From Candidatus Rokuibacteriota bacterium (GTDB taxonomy: Bacteria > Methylomirabilota > Methylomirabilia > Rokubacteriales > JACPHL01), in NCBI GenBank assembly GCA_016188625.1, contig JACPHL010000157.1, forward strand, positions 1 through 6,343: a stretch of DNA of 6,343 bases, in the 5' to 3' direction. A program made the position numbers and the translations under genes. Below the pieces are notes generated by a model. The model was given only the letters and a program-made list of their open reading frames with translations. It had not been told where the DNA came from and did no database searches. Shown piece after piece: positions 1,371 through 6,343 of this stretch. How positions within the stretch are numbered: position 1 is the first letter of the stretch; every line of letters starts with the position of its first letter.

Positions 1371-2132
1371 ATGAACGAAGAACGCAAGCTGGCCCTCTTC
1401 ATCGACTTCGAGAACATCGCCCGCGGGATCAAGGACGCCCAGTACAAGGGGTTCGAGATCAAGCTGGTCCTGGAGCGGCTGGTCGAGAAGGGAAAGCTCA
1501 TGGTCAAGCGGGCCTACGCCGACTGGAACCGCTACACCGAGTACAAGCGCCCCTTCCACGAGGCCGCCATCGAGCTGATCGACGTCCCCCAAAGCCGCTA
1601 CAGCGGGAAGAACTCCGCCGACATCCGGATGGTCGTGGACGCCATGGACCTGGCCCACGCCAAGGAGCACCTCGACACCTTCGCCATCGTCTCCGGCGAC
1701 TCCGACTTCTCGCCCCTGGTCTCGAAGCTCCGCGAGAACGCCAAGTACGTGATCGGCCTCGGGGTCAAGACCTCCTCCTCGGAGCTGCTGGTGGCGAACT
1801 GCGACGAGTTCATCTTCTACGAGGACCTGATCCGCGAGACCCGCAAGGCGGCCCTCAAGGGGCTCCCCGAGAAGAAGGCCGAGGCCTTCGGCCAGCTCGT
1901 GGAGGCGATCCAGGCCCTCCAGCGGGAGAACAAGGAGATCCTCTGGGGCTCCATGGTCAAGCAGACCATGATCCGGAAGAACCCCGCCTTCACCGAAAGC
2001 TACTACGGCTACTCCACCTTCTCCAAGCTCCTCGAGGACGCGGCCAAGCACAAGGTGGTCCAGCTCAAGCGCGACGAGAAGAGCGGGACCTACATCATCG
2101 CCGGCCTCGCCGAGGAGGGGCGCGCCGCGTGA
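1371..2132 (+). CDS. NYN-domain putative ribonuclease with C-terminal OST-HTH/LOTUS-like domain
   Basis: This is a 253-aa cytoplasmic protein of the LabA/DUF88 (NYN, PIN-like) family, proposed to be metal-dependent RNases. The N-terminal domain (about 5-150) has the expected acidic sites: LFIDFENIA (D12, N15), NSADIRMVVDAMDL (D84, D90) and VSGDSDFSPLV (D110, D112). A charged linker (155-168) leads to a helical/winged region (about 170-245; WGSMVKQTM, YGYSTFSKLLEDA, SGTYII) typical of OST-HTH/LOTUS RNA-binding modules. The start is set by AAGGA at 1360-1364, six nt before ATG; upstream in-frame codons have no such site. A strong promoter lies just upstream. The stop overlaps the next start (GTGA), so the dehydrogenase is co-transcribed and probably translationally coupled. 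All acidic residues are intact, so an active nuclease is expected. The natural RNA target is unknown, and no functional link to sugar oxidation is evident. Confidence 0.92.
   Translation: MNEERKLALFIDFENIARGIKDAQYKGFEIKLVLERLVEKGKLMVKRAYADWNRYTEYKRPFHEAAIELIDVPQSRYSGKNSADIRMVVDAMDLAHAKEHLDTFAIVSGDSDFSPLVSKLRENAKYVIGLGVKTSSSELLVANCDEFIFYEDLIRETRKAALKGLPEKKAEAFGQLVEAIQALQRENKEILWGSMVKQTMIRKNPAFTESYYGYSTFSKLLEDAAKHKVVQLKRDEKSGTYIIAGLAEEGRAA
2112..2120 (+). promoter_or_regulatory. Ribosome binding site that fixes a GTG start
   Basis: GAGGAGGGG lies inside the last codons of the NYN gene, eight nt before GTG 2129. It is the strongest Shine-Dalgarno in the area. It supports the GTG start and the 4-nt overlap with the preceding TGA, as expected for translational coupling. 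Confidence 0.75.
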
Positions 2133-3226
2133 GGCGGCGCAGCCTACTCCTCGTCCTTTTCCTCGCCGGCCTCGCCCTCGCCGCCCCGGCCCCGGGCCAG
2201 CAGCGTCTCCGTCTCCCTCCGGGCTTCGCCATCGAGCCTTTCGCGGAGGGGCTCGGCCCCGCCCGCTTCATGACCCTCGACCCCGGCGGCACCCTCCTGG
2301 TCTCGATCCCCCGCGCCGGGCGCGTGGTGGCGCTGCCCGACGCCGACGGGGACGGCCGGGCGGACCGGGTGGTCCCGGTGGTCGAGGGCCTCGAGCTCCC
2401 CCACGGCCTCGCCTTCCAGGGCGGCCGGCTCTACGTGGCGGAGACCGGGCGGGTCATCCGCTTCCGCTACGACCCGCGAAGCCTGAAGGTCGAAGGGCCG
2501 TCCGAGGTCGTCGTCCCGGACCTCCCGCCCCGCGGCGGCCACTGGACCCGGACCATCGCCTTCGGCCCCGACGGCCGGCTCTACGTCTCGGTCGGCTCCT
2601 CCTGCAACGTCTGCCGGGAGAAGGACCCGCGCCGGGCCGCCATCCTCAGAACCCGGCCCGATGGCCGGACCGAGCCGTTCGCCACCGGGCTCCGGAACGC
2701 GGTCGGGATCGCCTTTCACCCGGAGAGCGGCCAGCTTTGGGCCACCGTGAACGAGCGCGACTGGCGGGGGGACGACCTGCCGCCCGACTACGTGACGGTG
2801 GTGCGGGAGGGCGGGTCCTACGGCTGGCCGGACTGCTTCGCGGTCGAGGGGCGCGCGGTCCCGGACACGACCTTCGACAGCCGGGCCTCATGCCAGGGGG
2901 TCAGCCTCCCCACGGTGGAGATCCAGGCCCACTCCGCCCCGCTCGGCCTGGCCTTCTACACCGGAGAGCAGTTCCCCCCCGAGTATCGCGGCGACCTCTT
3001 CGTCGCGTCCCACGGCTCCTGGAACCGCTCGGTCCCGACCGGCTACAAGGTCTTCCGGATTCGGCTCGGCGGCCCCCGGCCCCAAGTCGAGGAGTTCGCC
3101 AGCGGGTGGCTCGTGGGGCAGCGGGCGTGGGGGCGGCCGGTGGACCTGGTGGTGGGGCGCGACGGCTCGCTCTTCCTCTCCGATGACCACCAGGGGGTGA
3201 TCTACCGGATCCGCTACCGCGGCTAG
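2129..3226 (+). CDS. Exported PQQ-dependent sugar dehydrogenase (glucose/sorbosone dehydrogenase family)
   Basis: This is a 365-aa six-bladed beta-propeller of the soluble glucose dehydrogenase/L-sorbosone dehydrogenase family (GSDH), which oxidises aldoses or related sugars in the periplasm using PQQ and calcium. The N-terminus (MRRRSLLLVL, then a hydrophobic run to A19 and APGQ) is a Sec signal peptide. Family landmarks in order are PHGLAF (H92), GGHWTRTIAFGPDGRLYVSVG (H138, candidate catalytic His), TGLRNAVGIAFHP (R189, N190), EGGSYGWPDCF, HSAPLGLAFYTG (H268), SHGSWNRS (H295) and GRPVDLVVGRDGSLFLSDD. A Ca-loop-like DADGDGRAD lies at 71-79. C159/C162 form a CNVC pair, and C236 and C255 could make a disulfide. 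It lacks a cytochrome c domain, so electrons must go to a separate acceptor. Start is GTG. The TAG stop sits in CTAG, directly before a hairpin repeat. The exact substrate is unknown, and some relatives bind no PQQ. Confidence 0.9.
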   Translation: MRRRSLLLVLFLAGLALAAPAPGQQRLRLPPGFAIEPFAEGLGPARFMTLDPGGTLLVSIPRAGRVVALPDADGDGRADRVVPVVEGLELPHGLAFQGGRLYVAETGRVIRFRYDPRSLKVEGPSEVVVPDLPPRGGHWTRTIAFGPDGRLYVSVGSSCNVCREKDPRRAAILRTRPDGRTEPFATGLRNAVGIAFHPESGQLWATVNERDWRGDDLPPDYVTVVREGGSYGWPDCFAVEGRAVPDTTFDSRASCQGVSLPTVEIQAHSAPLGLAFYTGEQFPPEYRGDLFVASHGSWNRSVPTGYKVFRIRLGGPRPQVEEFASGWLVGQRAWGRPVDLVVGRDGSLFLSDDHQGVIYRIRYRG

Positions 3227-3227
3227 A

Positions 3228-3345
3228 CCTCGGAGGGGGGCTTCGCCCCCCTTCCGAACCTCCCCCCGGAAGTTGCGCGGGCGAAGCCCGCGCTCGGAGC
3301 GGACCACCCATCCGCGAGAGCGTGCGAACGCGCCCCCCTCCGAGG
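3228..3345. repeat. 118-bp palindromic intergenic element with 14-bp perfect terminal inverted repeats
   Basis: CCTCGGAGGGGGGC (3228-3241) is mirrored perfectly by GCCCCCCTCCGAGG (3332-3345). Inside are two hairpins. The first is C3231-G3256 (GGGGGG, loop CTTCG, CCCCCC, extended by CGGA/TCCG with one bulged T). The second is 3275-3293 (GCGCGGGC, loop GAA, GCCCGCGC). The element fills the gap between two convergent genes, starting one base after one TAG and three bases after the other. The first 60 bases recur at 6284-6343. I see no clear target-site duplication and no coding potential. It could be a REP/MITE-like dispersed repeat, a bidirectional terminator, or both. Confidence 0.8.
3231..3256 (+). 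terminator. Strong G6/C6 hairpin after the PQQ dehydrogenase, no T-tract
   Basis: The stem is CGGAGGGGGG against CCCCCCTTCCG with a five-base CTTCG loop and one bulged T, beginning four bases after the stop codon. There is no following U-run, so it is not a textbook intrinsic terminator. It may block RNA polymerase or protect the 3' end. A second perfect 8-bp stem at 3275-3293 follows. Confidence 0.5.
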
Positions 3346-3348
3346 CAC

Positions 3349-3720
3349 CTAGTCGCGGTAGACGATCACCTCGACCCGCCCCCGGTCGCTCAGGAAGGCC
3401 GTCAGGAGCCAGCTCACCAGCCCCACCACGATCGCCCCGAAGACCGAGGCCCAGAACCCTGCGACCGTGAACCCGCCCACCAGCCACGCCACGAGCTGGA
3501 GGAGGAGGCCGTTCAGGACCAGGATGAAGAGGCCGAGGGTGAGGAACGTGAGGGGCAGGGTGAGGAAGAGGAGGACCGGCCGGATGACGGCGTTCACCAG
3601 TCCGAGCACCAGGCCCGCCAGAAGGGCCGGCCCGAGGCCGGTCAGCTCGATCCCCGGGATCAGGAGCGAGGCGAGGTAGAGGGCCAGGGTGTTGATGAGG
3701 ACGCGAAGGAGGAATCCCAC
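3349..3720 (-). CDS. Small membrane protein, PF04020 'phage holin family' (YvlD-like)
   Basis: This is a 123-aa, almost wholly hydrophobic inner-membrane protein with four predicted helices at about 3-22, 29-47, 50-81 and 86-110, and a short charged tail (SDRGRVEVIVYRD). The signature NAVIRPVLLFLTLPLTFLTL followed by GLF and LVLN is characteristic of PF04020. Despite the family name these are housekeeping membrane proteins with no proven lysis role, and nothing phage-like is nearby. The GTG start at 3720 is chosen because AAGGAGGG (3733-3726) lies five nt upstream. The frame stays open far upstream, across the opposite-strand dehydrogenase gene, but that is a GC-rich artefact. The gene converges on the PQQ dehydrogenase; its TAG stop lies in CTAG, three bases from the inverted repeat. 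No confident promoter was seen. Confidence 0.88.
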   Translation of the reverse strand: MGFLLRVLINTLALYLASLLIPGIELTGLGPALLAGLVLGLVNAVIRPVLLFLTLPLTFLTLGLFILVLNGLLLQLVAWLVGGFTVAGFWASVFGAIVVGLVSWLLTAFLSDRGRVEVIVYRD

Positions 3721-3725
3721 GGAGG

Positions 3726-3733
3726 CCCTCCTT
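3726..3733 (-). promoter_or_regulatory. Ribosome binding site for the PF04020 gene
   Basis: On the minus strand AAGGAGGG precedes GTG 3720 by five nt. This near-perfect site decides the start over an in-frame ATG (MDTGCYEC) 15 codons upstream, whose added residues do not fit the family. Confidence 0.75.
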
Positions 3734-3810
3734 GGCCGGCATTCATAGCATCCAGTATCCATCCTAACACCGATCGGCGCGAAACGGGCGCCTTCGGCGC
3801 TCTGGCCGGC

Positions 3811-3840
3811 TTGCACCCGATGGGGGATTGCCGCTACCAT
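3811..3840 (+). promoter_or_regulatory. Possible weak promoter for the oxidoreductase operon
   Basis: TTGCAC (3811-3816), 18 bp, TACCAT (3835-3840) is a 3/6 plus 4/6 match to sigma70 hexamers, lying about 140 bp before ATG 3982 in the only AT-richer part of the spacer. This is a weak match and could be chance. Confidence 0.25.
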
Positions 3841-3905
3841 AGCTCCATGCGATCCAGGGCTGGGCGGTCCGCTCCCCGACACCCCGATCCTCTTCGACGC
3901 CGGCC

Positions 3906-3971
3906 TTCCCCTTGAAGATCGCCGGGGGCGACGGGGCGCCCGCGCGCGTCTTCGCCCTCCTCGAGGAGTAG
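3906..3971 (+). pseudogene. Likely 3' remnant of a cyclase-family (PF04199) gene
   Basis: The frame ending at TAG 3969-3971 reads FPLKIAGGDGAPARVFALLE then E and stop. This resembles the C-terminal strand of cyclase/arylformamidase-like proteins (a pattern like LPLKI-GG-GAP-R-A). Upstream in this frame the sequence turns to nonsense and hits TAG at 3840. A neighbouring frame reads PLPDTPILFDAGLPL directly before, as if a frameshift had split one protein. The stop sits immediately before the Shine-Dalgarno of the next gene, as in an intact operon. I infer that an upstream operon gene was lost, leaving its tail. The family resemblance is from memory and the stretch is short, so it could be chance. 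Confidence 0.35.
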
Positions 3972-3981
3972 AGGAGGCGCG

Positions 3982-4932
3982 ATGGTGAGGGTGGGCTTCA
4001 TCGGGACCGGGCAGATGGGGCGGCCGATGGCGGAGCGTCTCCTGGCCGCGGGCTTCGCCCTCACGGTCCACGACCACCGCCCCGAGGCCGCCCGGCTCCT
4101 GCTCGCGCAGGGGGCGCGCTGGGCCGAGACCCCCGCTGGCGCGGCCGCGGGTGCCGAGCGGGTCATCACCATGCTCCCCTCCTCGGCCGAGGTCGAGGCG
4201 GTCATCCTCGGGCCCGACGGCGTCCTGGAGCAACTCGCCCCCGGCGCCATCGTCCTCGACATGTCCTCGGCCGACCCCGCCAGCACCCATCGCCTGGCGG
4301 AGCGGGTCGCGGAGCGGGGCGGGATCATGCTCGACGCCCCCGTCTCGGGCGGGGTGAAGGGGGCCCGCGAAGGGCGGCTGGCGATCATGGTCGGCGGCCC
4401 GCTCGATGCCTTCGAGGTCTGTCGGCCGCTCCTGGCGGCGATGGGGGCGAAGCTCTTCCACGTGGGCGGGCACGGCACCGGGCACGCGATGAAGGCGGTC
4501 AACAACGCCTGCTCCGCGGCGGGGCTCTTGATCACCGCCGAGGCGGTCGCGGTGGCGGTCAAGGCGGGGATCGATCCCGCCCGCGCGGTCGAGATCCTCC
4601 AGGCCGGGACCGGCCGCTCCCACGCCAGCGACTACAAGTTCCCCGAGTTCGTCCTGACCGGCCGCTTCGACGCCGGCTTCGCCCTCGGGCTTCTCGTCAA
4701 GGATCTGGACTGTTATACCCGCCTGGCCAGGGAGGTCGGGGTCCCGAGCCTGGTCGGCGGAACGGTCGCCGAGCTCTACCGTCTGGCCGTGAGCCTCGGG
4801 ATGGCGGCCGAGGACCACACCGCGATCGTCCGCCTGATCGAGCGGTGGGCGGGGATCGAGCTCCGCGGACAGTCCGGGACCGAGGGCGCGGAGTCGGACG
4901 GCCGGCTGCCCGACGCCCCGGGACCGCGGTAA
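3982..4932 (+). CDS. NAD-binding 3-hydroxyisobutyrate dehydrogenase family oxidoreductase
   Basis: This is a 316-aa cytosolic beta-hydroxyacid dehydrogenase (HIBADH/tartronate semialdehyde reductase superfamily), interconverting a 3-hydroxyacid and its semialdehyde. The Rossmann domain (1-165) opens with GFIGTGQMGRPMAERLLAAG (G8, G10, G13). D31 in VHDHRP, at the end of the second strand, suggests NAD over NADP. DAPVSGG (118-124) is the substrate-binding loop, and GHAMKAVNNA carries the expected catalytic Lys171 with N174/N175. The helical C-terminal domain contains KDLDCYTRLA (K240). Length is slightly above the usual 290-300 aa because of a polar tail (about 295-316) of low complexity. The start has GAGGAGG (3971-3977) four nt upstream. 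It is first in an operon with the methyltransferase (8-nt gap) and YCII gene. The substrate (3-hydroxyisobutyrate, tartronate semialdehyde, other) cannot be told from sequence. Confidence 0.93.
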   Translation: MVRVGFIGTGQMGRPMAERLLAAGFALTVHDHRPEAARLLLAQGARWAETPAGAAAGAERVITMLPSSAEVEAVILGPDGVLEQLAPGAIVLDMSSADPASTHRLAERVAERGGIMLDAPVSGGVKGAREGRLAIMVGGPLDAFEVCRPLLAAMGAKLFHVGGHGTGHAMKAVNNACSAAGLLITAEAVAVAVKAGIDPARAVEILQAGTGRSHASDYKFPEFVLTGRFDAGFALGLLVKDLDCYTRLAREVGVPSLVGGTVAELYRLAVSLGMAAEDHTAIVRLIERWAGIELRGQSGTEGAESDGRLPDAPGPR

Positions 4933-4940
4933 GGGCATCG

Positions 4941-5747
4941 ATGCCCCAGGCCGGGAGCCCGGCCCCGACCCGCCCCTACGGCGCCCTCGCCCCCTACTTC
5001 GCGCGGGTCTACCCCGCCGACGGGGTCGCCCCCTGGTTCCACCGGGCCCTCGCCCTCGCCGGCGCCTGGGGGGTCCGGGGCGGCGCGCTCCTCGACGTGG
5101 GCGCGGGGACCTGCCGCTTCAGCCGCTTCTGGGCCCGCCACGGCTTCCGCACCGTCTGCCTCGACCGCTCCCTCCCGATGCTCCGGGCGGCCCGGCTCGG
5201 GCCCGAGGCGGGACGGCTCCACCGGGTGGCGGGCACCCTCGACTGTCTCCGGGAACGACCGCGCTTCGACGTCGTGACGGCTATCGACGACGTCGTCAAC
5301 TACCTCGGCGCCGAGCACGGCTCCCTCGTCCGCTTCCTCGACTCGGCCGCCCGGCTGCTGGCCCCCACGGGCCTCCTCCTCTTCGACTTCCTCACCCCCG
5401 AGGCCCGGACGTGGTACGACCTCGACGCCACGCGCTCCACGGGCGAGGTCCGCGTCAGGAGCCGGGGGGCCTTCGATGCGGTCTCGCACCTCCTGGAAGT
5501 CACCTACGAGGTCGTCACCCGGACAGGGACGAGTCGCGAGCGGCACCGGCTGCGGCTGTTCACGCCCGCGGAGGTCGAGGCCGGGCTCCGCCGCGCCGGG
5601 TTCCGGACCCGGATCCTCACCCGCCTCCTCGGCCATCCCCCGGGGCCGGCGGAGCCGGCGTACGACGTCCTCGCGAGCCTGGAGGCCTCCCCGAGCAAGG
5701 CCGGTCGGCTCCGGCGCGTCCTCGCCGCGGGCGGTGCGGAGGCGTGA
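4941..5747 (+). CDS. Class I SAM-dependent methyltransferase, substrate unknown
   Basis: This is a 268-aa soluble protein with a seven-strand Rossmann methyltransferase fold. Motif I is LLDVGAGTCRFSRFWA (D52, G54, G56). The acidic residue after strand 2 is D75 in VCLDRS. FDVVTAIDDVVNYLG (109-123) is motif IV-like, and the post-motif strand is GLLLFDFLTP (144-153). A beta-rich insertion (about 155-205) precedes RLRLFTPAEVEAGLRRAGF, the usual end of small-molecule methyltransferases. The start is set at ATG 4941 by AAGGG five nt upstream; the frame is open back to 4845 but that would overlap the dehydrogenase. Its TGA shares one base with the ATG of the YCII gene (TGATG), implying coupling. The operon suggests a small metabolite substrate, but neither the acceptor atom nor the pathway can be inferred. 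Confidence 0.9.
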   Translation: MPQAGSPAPTRPYGALAPYFARVYPADGVAPWFHRALALAGAWGVRGGALLDVGAGTCRFSRFWARHGFRTVCLDRSLPMLRAARLGPEAGRLHRVAGTLDCLRERPRFDVVTAIDDVVNYLGAEHGSLVRFLDSAARLLAPTGLLLFDFLTPEARTWYDLDATRSTGEVRVRSRGAFDAVSHLLEVTYEVVTRTGTSRERHRLRLFTPAEVEAGLRRAGFRTRILTRLLGHPPGPAEPAYDVLASLEASPSKAGRLRRVLAAGGAEA

Positions 5748-6280
5748 TGGTCGTCGTCCACGCGGTGCTCGACTACGCCGACGATCATGCCACCCGGGGC
5801 GGACCGCACCGGGAGGCGCACCTGGCCCGGCTCTTCGAGCTGCGGGCGCGAGGCCGGGTGGTCGGGGTCGGGGTCCGACTCGGGGCGCCCAGGGCCGACA
5901 TCTTCTACCGGGGCGCGACCCGGGCCGAGGTCGAGGGGCTGATCACGGCCGACCCCTACTACGCGCACGGGGTCGCGACCGGGTACACCCTCCGACCGTT
6001 CGTCCAGTTCGTCGAGCCGTGGCACCCGGCCGAGGCCAAGGTGGACGGCTCGCGGATCGCGATCATCGCCGAGGCGCCGGTGGCCGACCTCGACCTCGCC
6101 TCCCTCGTCCTCGTGGAGCTGCGGGGCCGGGGGCAGATGACCTTCGGCGGGTTCCTGGAGAAGCATGCGCTCATGGTCCTCGCCACCCCGGAGCGGGCGA
6201 CCGCGGTCGGGTGGCTCGAGGAGACCGGGCTCTGGCGCGAAGCCGACCTGACCGCCTGGGAGTGGGCCTACCTCTTCTAG
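5747..6280 (+). CDS. YCII-related domain protein with C-terminal extension
   Basis: This 177-aa protein starts with a YCII/YciI-like ferredoxin-like domain (about 1-90): HAVLDYADDHATRGGPHREA has the conserved D and R, then HLARLFELRARGRVVGVG (with H25), and DPYYAHGVATGYTLRPFVQF, the family's DP-Y/F-G motif. YciI-type proteins are usually about 90-110 aa and of poorly known enzymatic function. The conserved His/Asp pair is thought to be catalytic. The remaining 85 residues (EPWHPAEAKVDG to the terminal WEWAYLF) do not match anything I recognise. Their aromatic-rich end suggests a folded domain, not a tail. GGAGG (5738-5742) lies four nt before ATG, inside the methyltransferase gene. It is last in the operon; the TAG lies in CTAG and a hairpin repeat follows three bases later. 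Family call is good; function unknown. Confidence 0.82.
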   Translation: MVVVHAVLDYADDHATRGGPHREAHLARLFELRARGRVVGVGVRLGAPRADIFYRGATRAEVEGLITADPYYAHGVATGYTLRPFVQFVEPWHPAEAKVDGSRIAIIAEAPVADLDLASLVLVELRGRGQMTFGGFLEKHALMVLATPERATAVGWLEETGLWREADLTAWEWAYLF

Positions 6281-6283
6281 ATG

Positions 6284-6343
6284 CCTCGGAGGGGGGCGCT
6301 GCCCCCTTTCCGAACCTCCCCCCGAGGGTGCGCGGGCCAAGCC
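6284..6343 (+). repeat. Second copy of the gene-end hairpin repeat, cut by window edge
   Basis: This copy aligns along its whole visible length with 3228-3290. The head CCTCGGAGGGGGGC is identical, TTCCGAACCTCCCCCC (6308-6323) matches 3252-3267 exactly, and TGCGCGGGC (6329-6337) matches 3274-3282. Its first 17 bases, with the preceding TG (6282-6298), are also the exact reverse complement of 3331-3347. The far end is outside the window. Confidence 0.8.
6287..6312 (+). terminator. Hairpin after the YCII gene, no T-tract beyond three T
   Basis: GGGGGC, loop GCT, GCCCCC (6292-6306), extended by CGGAG/TTTCCG with a bulge, starts seven bases after the stop. The loop differs from the copy at 3231-3256 (GCT against CTTCG), yet the paired arms are kept, which supports selection for structure. 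It is likely the operon terminator or 3' barrier. Confidence 0.5.

Follow-up and report, generated by a model that had tools for sequence, protein, structure and literature searches.

Small palindromic elements at gene junctions of Rokubacteria, with target duplication and filled and empty sites in one genus

The hairpin repeats that follow three genes of the window, i.e., the whole 6,343-nt stretch of DNA analyzed here, are members of a dispersed family. This family most probably (probability of about 0.8) consists of small non-coding mobile elements, which insert at gene junctions with duplication of their target. As read from aligned filled and empty sites, target duplication upon insertion and presence/absence polymorphism of the element are shown within one genus.

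Copies of the element in the window and in the order

Three heads with the sequence CCTCGGAGGGGGGC are present in the window (3228–3241 and 6284–6297 on the forward strand, 3332–3345 on the reverse strand), located 1, 3 and 3 nt past stop codons. As an earlier note had described, the stop on the head side is in all three cases a TAG within CTAG. The CTAG at 3223–3226 contains the TAG (3224–3226) of a GSDH/DUF7133-type gene (2129–3226), the one at 3349–3352 on the reverse strand the TAG (3349–3351) of a holin superfamily IV gene (3349–3720, reverse strand), and the one at 6277–6280 the TAG (6278–6280) of a YCII-like gene (5747–6280). The other visible stops are TGA (2130–2132), TAA (4930–4932) and TGA (5745–5747). 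By count, the window contains exactly three CTAGs, all of them at heads.

The first copy starts with the head hairpin CCTCGGAGGGGGGC-TTC-GCCCCCCTTCCGA (3228–3257). The core body, defined by an order-wide core alignment, follows at 3259–3293 and is built of CCTCCCCCC, a spacer and a second hairpin, GCGCGGGC-GAA-GCCCGCGC. The copy continues with a truncated tail of the 140-bp subfamily (3294–3331; nhmmer match up to 3324), which leads into the second head. Of this head only the 5′ arm is present, facing the convergent holin-superfamily gene (3332–3345, reverse strand). The arm, fused to the first copy's body, closes a palindrome with the first head, so that 3223–3352 forms one composite palindrome of 130 nt between convergent genes. 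Its predicted fold has an energy of −79.9 kcal/mol (z −6.3), in which both CTAG-containing ends can pair. The third copy (6284–6343, forward strand) comprises the head hairpin and the start of the body and is cut by the contig end.

The draft genome containing the window contig (2.6 Mb, 84% complete; G000) has 63 exact copies of the 14-nt head, and none of a reversed control pattern. By its NYN protein, the source is nearest to Candidatus Rokuibacteriota, this one protein being at most 85% identical to those of the MAGs. The head was found in 31 of 40 relatives of the same order, with up to 92 copies; those named below are G002, G010, G019, G025, G033, G037 and G039. Many contigs of the source genome (C38, C52, C68, C72, C82, C153, C293 and C343), as well as the window, end within ~250 nt of a head, which suggests that the repeats break the assembly and that the copy number is under-counted.

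Across the order, the element consists of a ~70-nt core containing two strong hairpins; in the source genome it is lengthened to ~140 bp. Pairing of the head helix is retained in 98% of the alignment cells, and 10 of its 12 pairs are invariant. In hairpin 2, paired changes were observed in 18 cells, all resting on two pairs, compared to 0 of 500 shuffles and far lower values in shifted registers. These changes indicate that the structure itself is preserved or copied, be it at the DNA or the RNA level. The only clear terminal inverted repeats belong to the 140-bp form and measure ~5 bp (G[T/A]GCC); the core form shows no clear ones. No Rfam family matched the window at the gathering threshold. 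The same head is also joined to unrelated bodies with palindromes of their own (body B at L009, L015, L023, L024 and L026; body C at L011, L021, L035, L047 and L067; body D at L011-, L018- and L062-), giving a modular, mosaic repeat system. Head-tail and inverted fusions, with GAGCCCGTCCGAGTAGGTA directly 5′ of the head, are present at L025 and L371 and point to recombination or nested insertion.

Position statistics were obtained for 81 deduplicated heads of the source genome, with one mismatch allowed; genes were called by a simple codon-usage caller seeded with the genes of the window, so start positions are approximate. Thirty-seven heads lie from −1 to +6 nt of a same-strand stop, a position occupied by 2.2% of random intergenic points, and in 25 of these 37 the spacing is exactly +3 nt. 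The copies are positioned non-randomly relative to stops, but only these 37 heads are stop-adjacent. Another 16 of the 81, versus 4.1% expected, are found 0–12 nt before a start codon on the opposite strand. Thirteen of 31 heads stand just before a start codon in G039, and in G033 one head follows a tRNA-Ser gene by 4 nt. In the relatives, the stops beside heads are mixed and the spacing varies from 1 to 4 nt. Complete 140-bp copies often abut the stop with whichever end faces the upstream gene, head or tail: the head side stands at +3 nt, while on the tail side the distance is 0 nt for four copies and up to ~16 nt for some others.

Heads and related hairpins also occur at tRNA genes (L181 in G039, L324 in G033, L320/L338 in G033/G019). 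At the 3′ end of the same tRNA-Ser gene as in G033, G019 has a variant head, TCGGAGGGGGCCTCGACGGCCCCCTCCGAGG. The rho gene ends with a CTAG stop followed by a head in both G000 and G010, from two families of the order (L067, L291); most other relatives have no repeat at the rho stop, and several of the repeat-free ones still end rho in CTAG.

Filled and empty sites within one genus

The flanks of 17 heads of G033 were searched in G037 and G019, the three genomes representing one genus. At several of these sites, among them L318, L323, L327, L329, L330 and L336, the element is absent from G037 and/or G019. In the clearest case, the filled site of G033 reads CTCCATCATGGAC, then the head and the rest of the element, then GCGAAGCCCATCATGCC, while the empty site of G037 reads CTCCATCATGCC. 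A perfect 8-bp duplication, CCATCATG, flanks the element in G033 and is single in G037 and G019, the latter having the same single-copy arrangement. On the coding strand, CCATCATG is a TGA stop overlapping an ATG start.

It is the only site with an empty counterpart at which the duplication is perfect. The duplications at other G033 sites with empty counterparts are shorter or diverged (GTTCAT, ACTCACC, CATGGCTA and TGATCAC), about 6–8 bp in length, and lie over GTGA, ATGA or TAG-CC-ATG junctions. Four loci (L322, L331, L332 and L333) yielded no assignment. G019 has a related but oppositely oriented element at the L318 junction.

Shared flanks are also seen in single copies, with TCGTTCAT, CTCATGA, GGCTCAT, CATGGC and CGCTCA repeated on both sides, the first three being the best examples. 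In 29 start-side copies from G000, G025, G039 and other relatives, the shared flanks are longer than in permuted pairs (p = 0.0005), and at least 5 nt are shared in 8 copies versus 3.4 after permutation (p = 0.0085). The 140-bp subfamily has CCTCCTAG, CTAGCGG, CTAGGG and CCTAGG on both flanks, with a weak result in a flexible permutation test (p = 0.046); CTAGGG on both sides is found in L384 as well.

At the start side, the distance between head and start codon peaks at 4–6 nt, and the native GAGG/GGAG motifs stand at 5–8 nt. The terminal GAGG of start-facing heads lies mostly 1–6 nt (up to 12 nt) before the start codon, a position from which it may serve as a ribosome-binding site.

Stop codons, CTAG and alternative readings

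The stops at the 37 stop-adjacent heads of the source genome are TAG in 22 cases, TAA in 9 and TGA in 6, and 14 of the 37 are within CTAG. TAG/CTAG at every copy, as noted in the window, is therefore a feature of its three copies and does not extend to the whole genome. TAG accounts for 59% of the stops beside heads and for 24% of the other stops (109/459; Fisher p = 1e-5), far from the genome average: the bias is real and strong but not strict.

The rarity of CTAG puts the window in context. About 15 copies would be expected there from base composition and 10.8 from dinucleotide shuffles. In 507 kb of sampled stretches of the source genome, on which the genome-wide CTAG and stop statistics are based, CTAG occurs 134 times (expected 571 by an order-2 Markov model, 1194 by base composition). 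It is ~4-fold under-represented relative to the Markov expectation, and the majority of the other palindromic tetramers tested occur at about the expected frequency. At the real rate of the genome, ~1.7 CTAGs are expected per 6.3 kb. That the window has no further CTAG is thus ordinary; the unusual feature is that all three are located at heads. The 110 CTAGs away from heads in the sampled stretches are found at stop codons (42), in intergenic DNA (49) and in coding DNA (19).

The left end of the 140-bp subfamily has the sequence CTAG-GTG-CCTCGG. Its right end is GACGGGCTC-CTAG, and decayed forms such as CTGG, CCAG and CTAC occur. The claim that the element includes CTAG holds insofar as the tetramer belongs to the insertion boundary; CTAG-like tetramers occur at the far end too. 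CTAG is found at the right end in 8 of 35 copies, comparable to TAG at the left end away from stops (10/44), and such similar survival at both ends would fit neutral decay there, with selection where the TAG serves as a stop. The best reading of this CTAG is probably a target or duplicated target. Against it, fixed 4-mers at left and right match no more often than permuted pairs (53/140 versus 56.6), so that the CTAG may instead be intrinsic to the element.

The latter is the model of the earlier note, in which CTAG is a terminal part of the element, which would bring a new TAG stop with it when it inserts, as GTAG-type REPs are reported to do. The enrichment of TAG at adjacent stops agrees with it, as do the CTAG-like tetramers at both ends, which show no copy-specific matching when compared at fixed positions. 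TAG is also present at −6 to −4 in 10 of the 44 heads that are not at stops (background 0.4%, p = 1e-15); one of these ten, L025, is a head-tail fusion. A precedent exists, since flanking ORFs often take their TAG stop from the end of a GTAG REP (Di Nocera 2013, PMC3733652). However, across the order at large, most heads lack a TAG at −6 (29/81 heads with it in G000, 4/76 in the other genomes). The ends of genes that bear a head were compared with loci of twelve relatives, found by searches with C-terminal fragments. Usable orthologues were available for 12 genes, and for each of the 12 at least one of them ends at the identical residue, nearly always without a repeat and with any of TGA, TAA or TAG, which argues that the element is not the maker of the stop. 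Of the window genes, the GSDH/DUF7133-type and YCII-like ones have G002 orthologues that stop at the same residue with TGA (without a repeat) and TAA, respectively, and of the holin superfamily IV homologues without the repeat, one ends in TAG and another in TGA. The head at L192 follows the TAA of an NYN gene, and a relative (L191) has the same TAA without a repeat; the syntenic regions around this gene in named Rokubacteria contain one filled site (L192) and are too distant for a clean empty one. A stop made on arrival is thus quite unlikely. By these alignments, which for the copies of the window genome are at family distance, the stop is native in position, though perhaps not always in identity.

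A hairpin selected close behind the stop, as a post-stop terminator or an mRNA 3′ end, would explain the peak at exactly +3 nt (25/37) and the very stable head hairpin with its 10 of 12 invariant pairs. REPs of E. coli have been reported to lower translation when closer than 16 nt to a stop (PMC12306157), an effect that would also speak for this function. The strict form of the idea, proposed earlier, fails on distribution: only 37 of 81 heads are stop-adjacent, many copies are reversed and end before a start codon (16/81 in G000, 13/31 in G039), and one stands behind tRNA-Ser. No T-run terminator was found at the heads of the window, where the stem is followed by TTCCGAACC. Copies are, moreover, gained and lost between genomes of one genus, and a terminator or 3′-end role as the basis of the family is unlikely. 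Less probable still is a RAYT-mobilized REP of the GTAG superfamily, although the repeats are palindromic, dispersed, intergenic and beside gene ends, sometimes with GTAG or CTAG before the head. The flank varies, with no constant GTAG tag, and a target duplication was found, which is not known from IS200/RAYT chemistry. The 84%-complete source genome has no match to Y1_Tnp (PF01797), a profile that did match in control genomes. DDE_Tnp_1 (PF01609) is absent from it as well, and a right-end pattern search for an autonomous copy in this genome returned only composites, body copies and one chance match.

Relation to known repeats and possible role at gene junctions

In design, the Rokubacterial family is closest to YPAL/RU-2, and it behaves like a small non-autonomous transposable element. 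YPAL/RU-2 of Yersinia (168 bp) is a non-coding palindromic, intergenic sequence with internal inverted repeats, not A+T-rich (PMC2229807), for which variable-length target duplications and filled and empty sites are known (as reviewed in PMC2229807). The likeness is one of design, drawn from descriptions: small palindromic non-coding elements, variable duplications, filled and empty sites. Unlike YPAL, the repeats described here share a fixed G-rich head and occupy stop/start junctions, and their duplications look shorter (6–8 versus 3–26 bp). With MITEs such as RUP and Correia/NEMIS, the family shares short, non-coding, multicopy, target-duplicating and presumably non-autonomous copies, but it lacks long terminal inverted repeats, and no partner transposase was found in the searches made. 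GTAG REPs and BIMEs, associated with RAYTs, are likewise hairpin repeats close behind genes; the present family differs by the absence of a constant GTAG and of Y1_Tnp, the target duplication and the native stop position. BOX elements of pneumococcus are modular, with one end hairpin joined to different bodies. The resemblance to them is in modularity; as far as is known, they are unrelated in sequence. The family is thus a new, MITE/YPAL-like one, neither a GTAG REP nor an intrinsic terminator. In the open-access literature searched, no description of this repeat family was found, and none for Rokubacteria.

For the insertion of such mobile elements, the filled and empty sites of the one genus show the following course. 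Landing at a gene junction duplicates ~6–8 bp, which often contain an overlapping or abutting stop/start. The first gene then ends in one target copy and the second starts in the other, with the GAGG of the element end offering the second gene a putative ribosome-binding site. If right, this would explain how a mobile element gets into gene-dense operons while both neighbors survive: stop and start are both present in the duplicated target, and the element may contribute a ribosome-binding site. Natural pairs of filled and empty sites would then make the effect of uncoupling overlapping genes testable. With CTAG rare and a large share of its remaining sites being TAG stops, many insertions would fall onto a pre-existing stop. 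A stop-codon bias beside a repeat can hence stem from target choice in a CTAG-avoiding genome, a caution for the interpretation of such biases.

More tentatively, and with considerable doubt, the family might act as a splitter of junctions. It would have repeatedly entered the 4-nt stop/start overlaps of translationally coupled genes, each gene gaining a copy of the overlap and the second finding its Shine-Dalgarno sequence in the base of a strong hairpin. Coupled genes might in this way have become separately, perhaps conditionally, initiated across the order.
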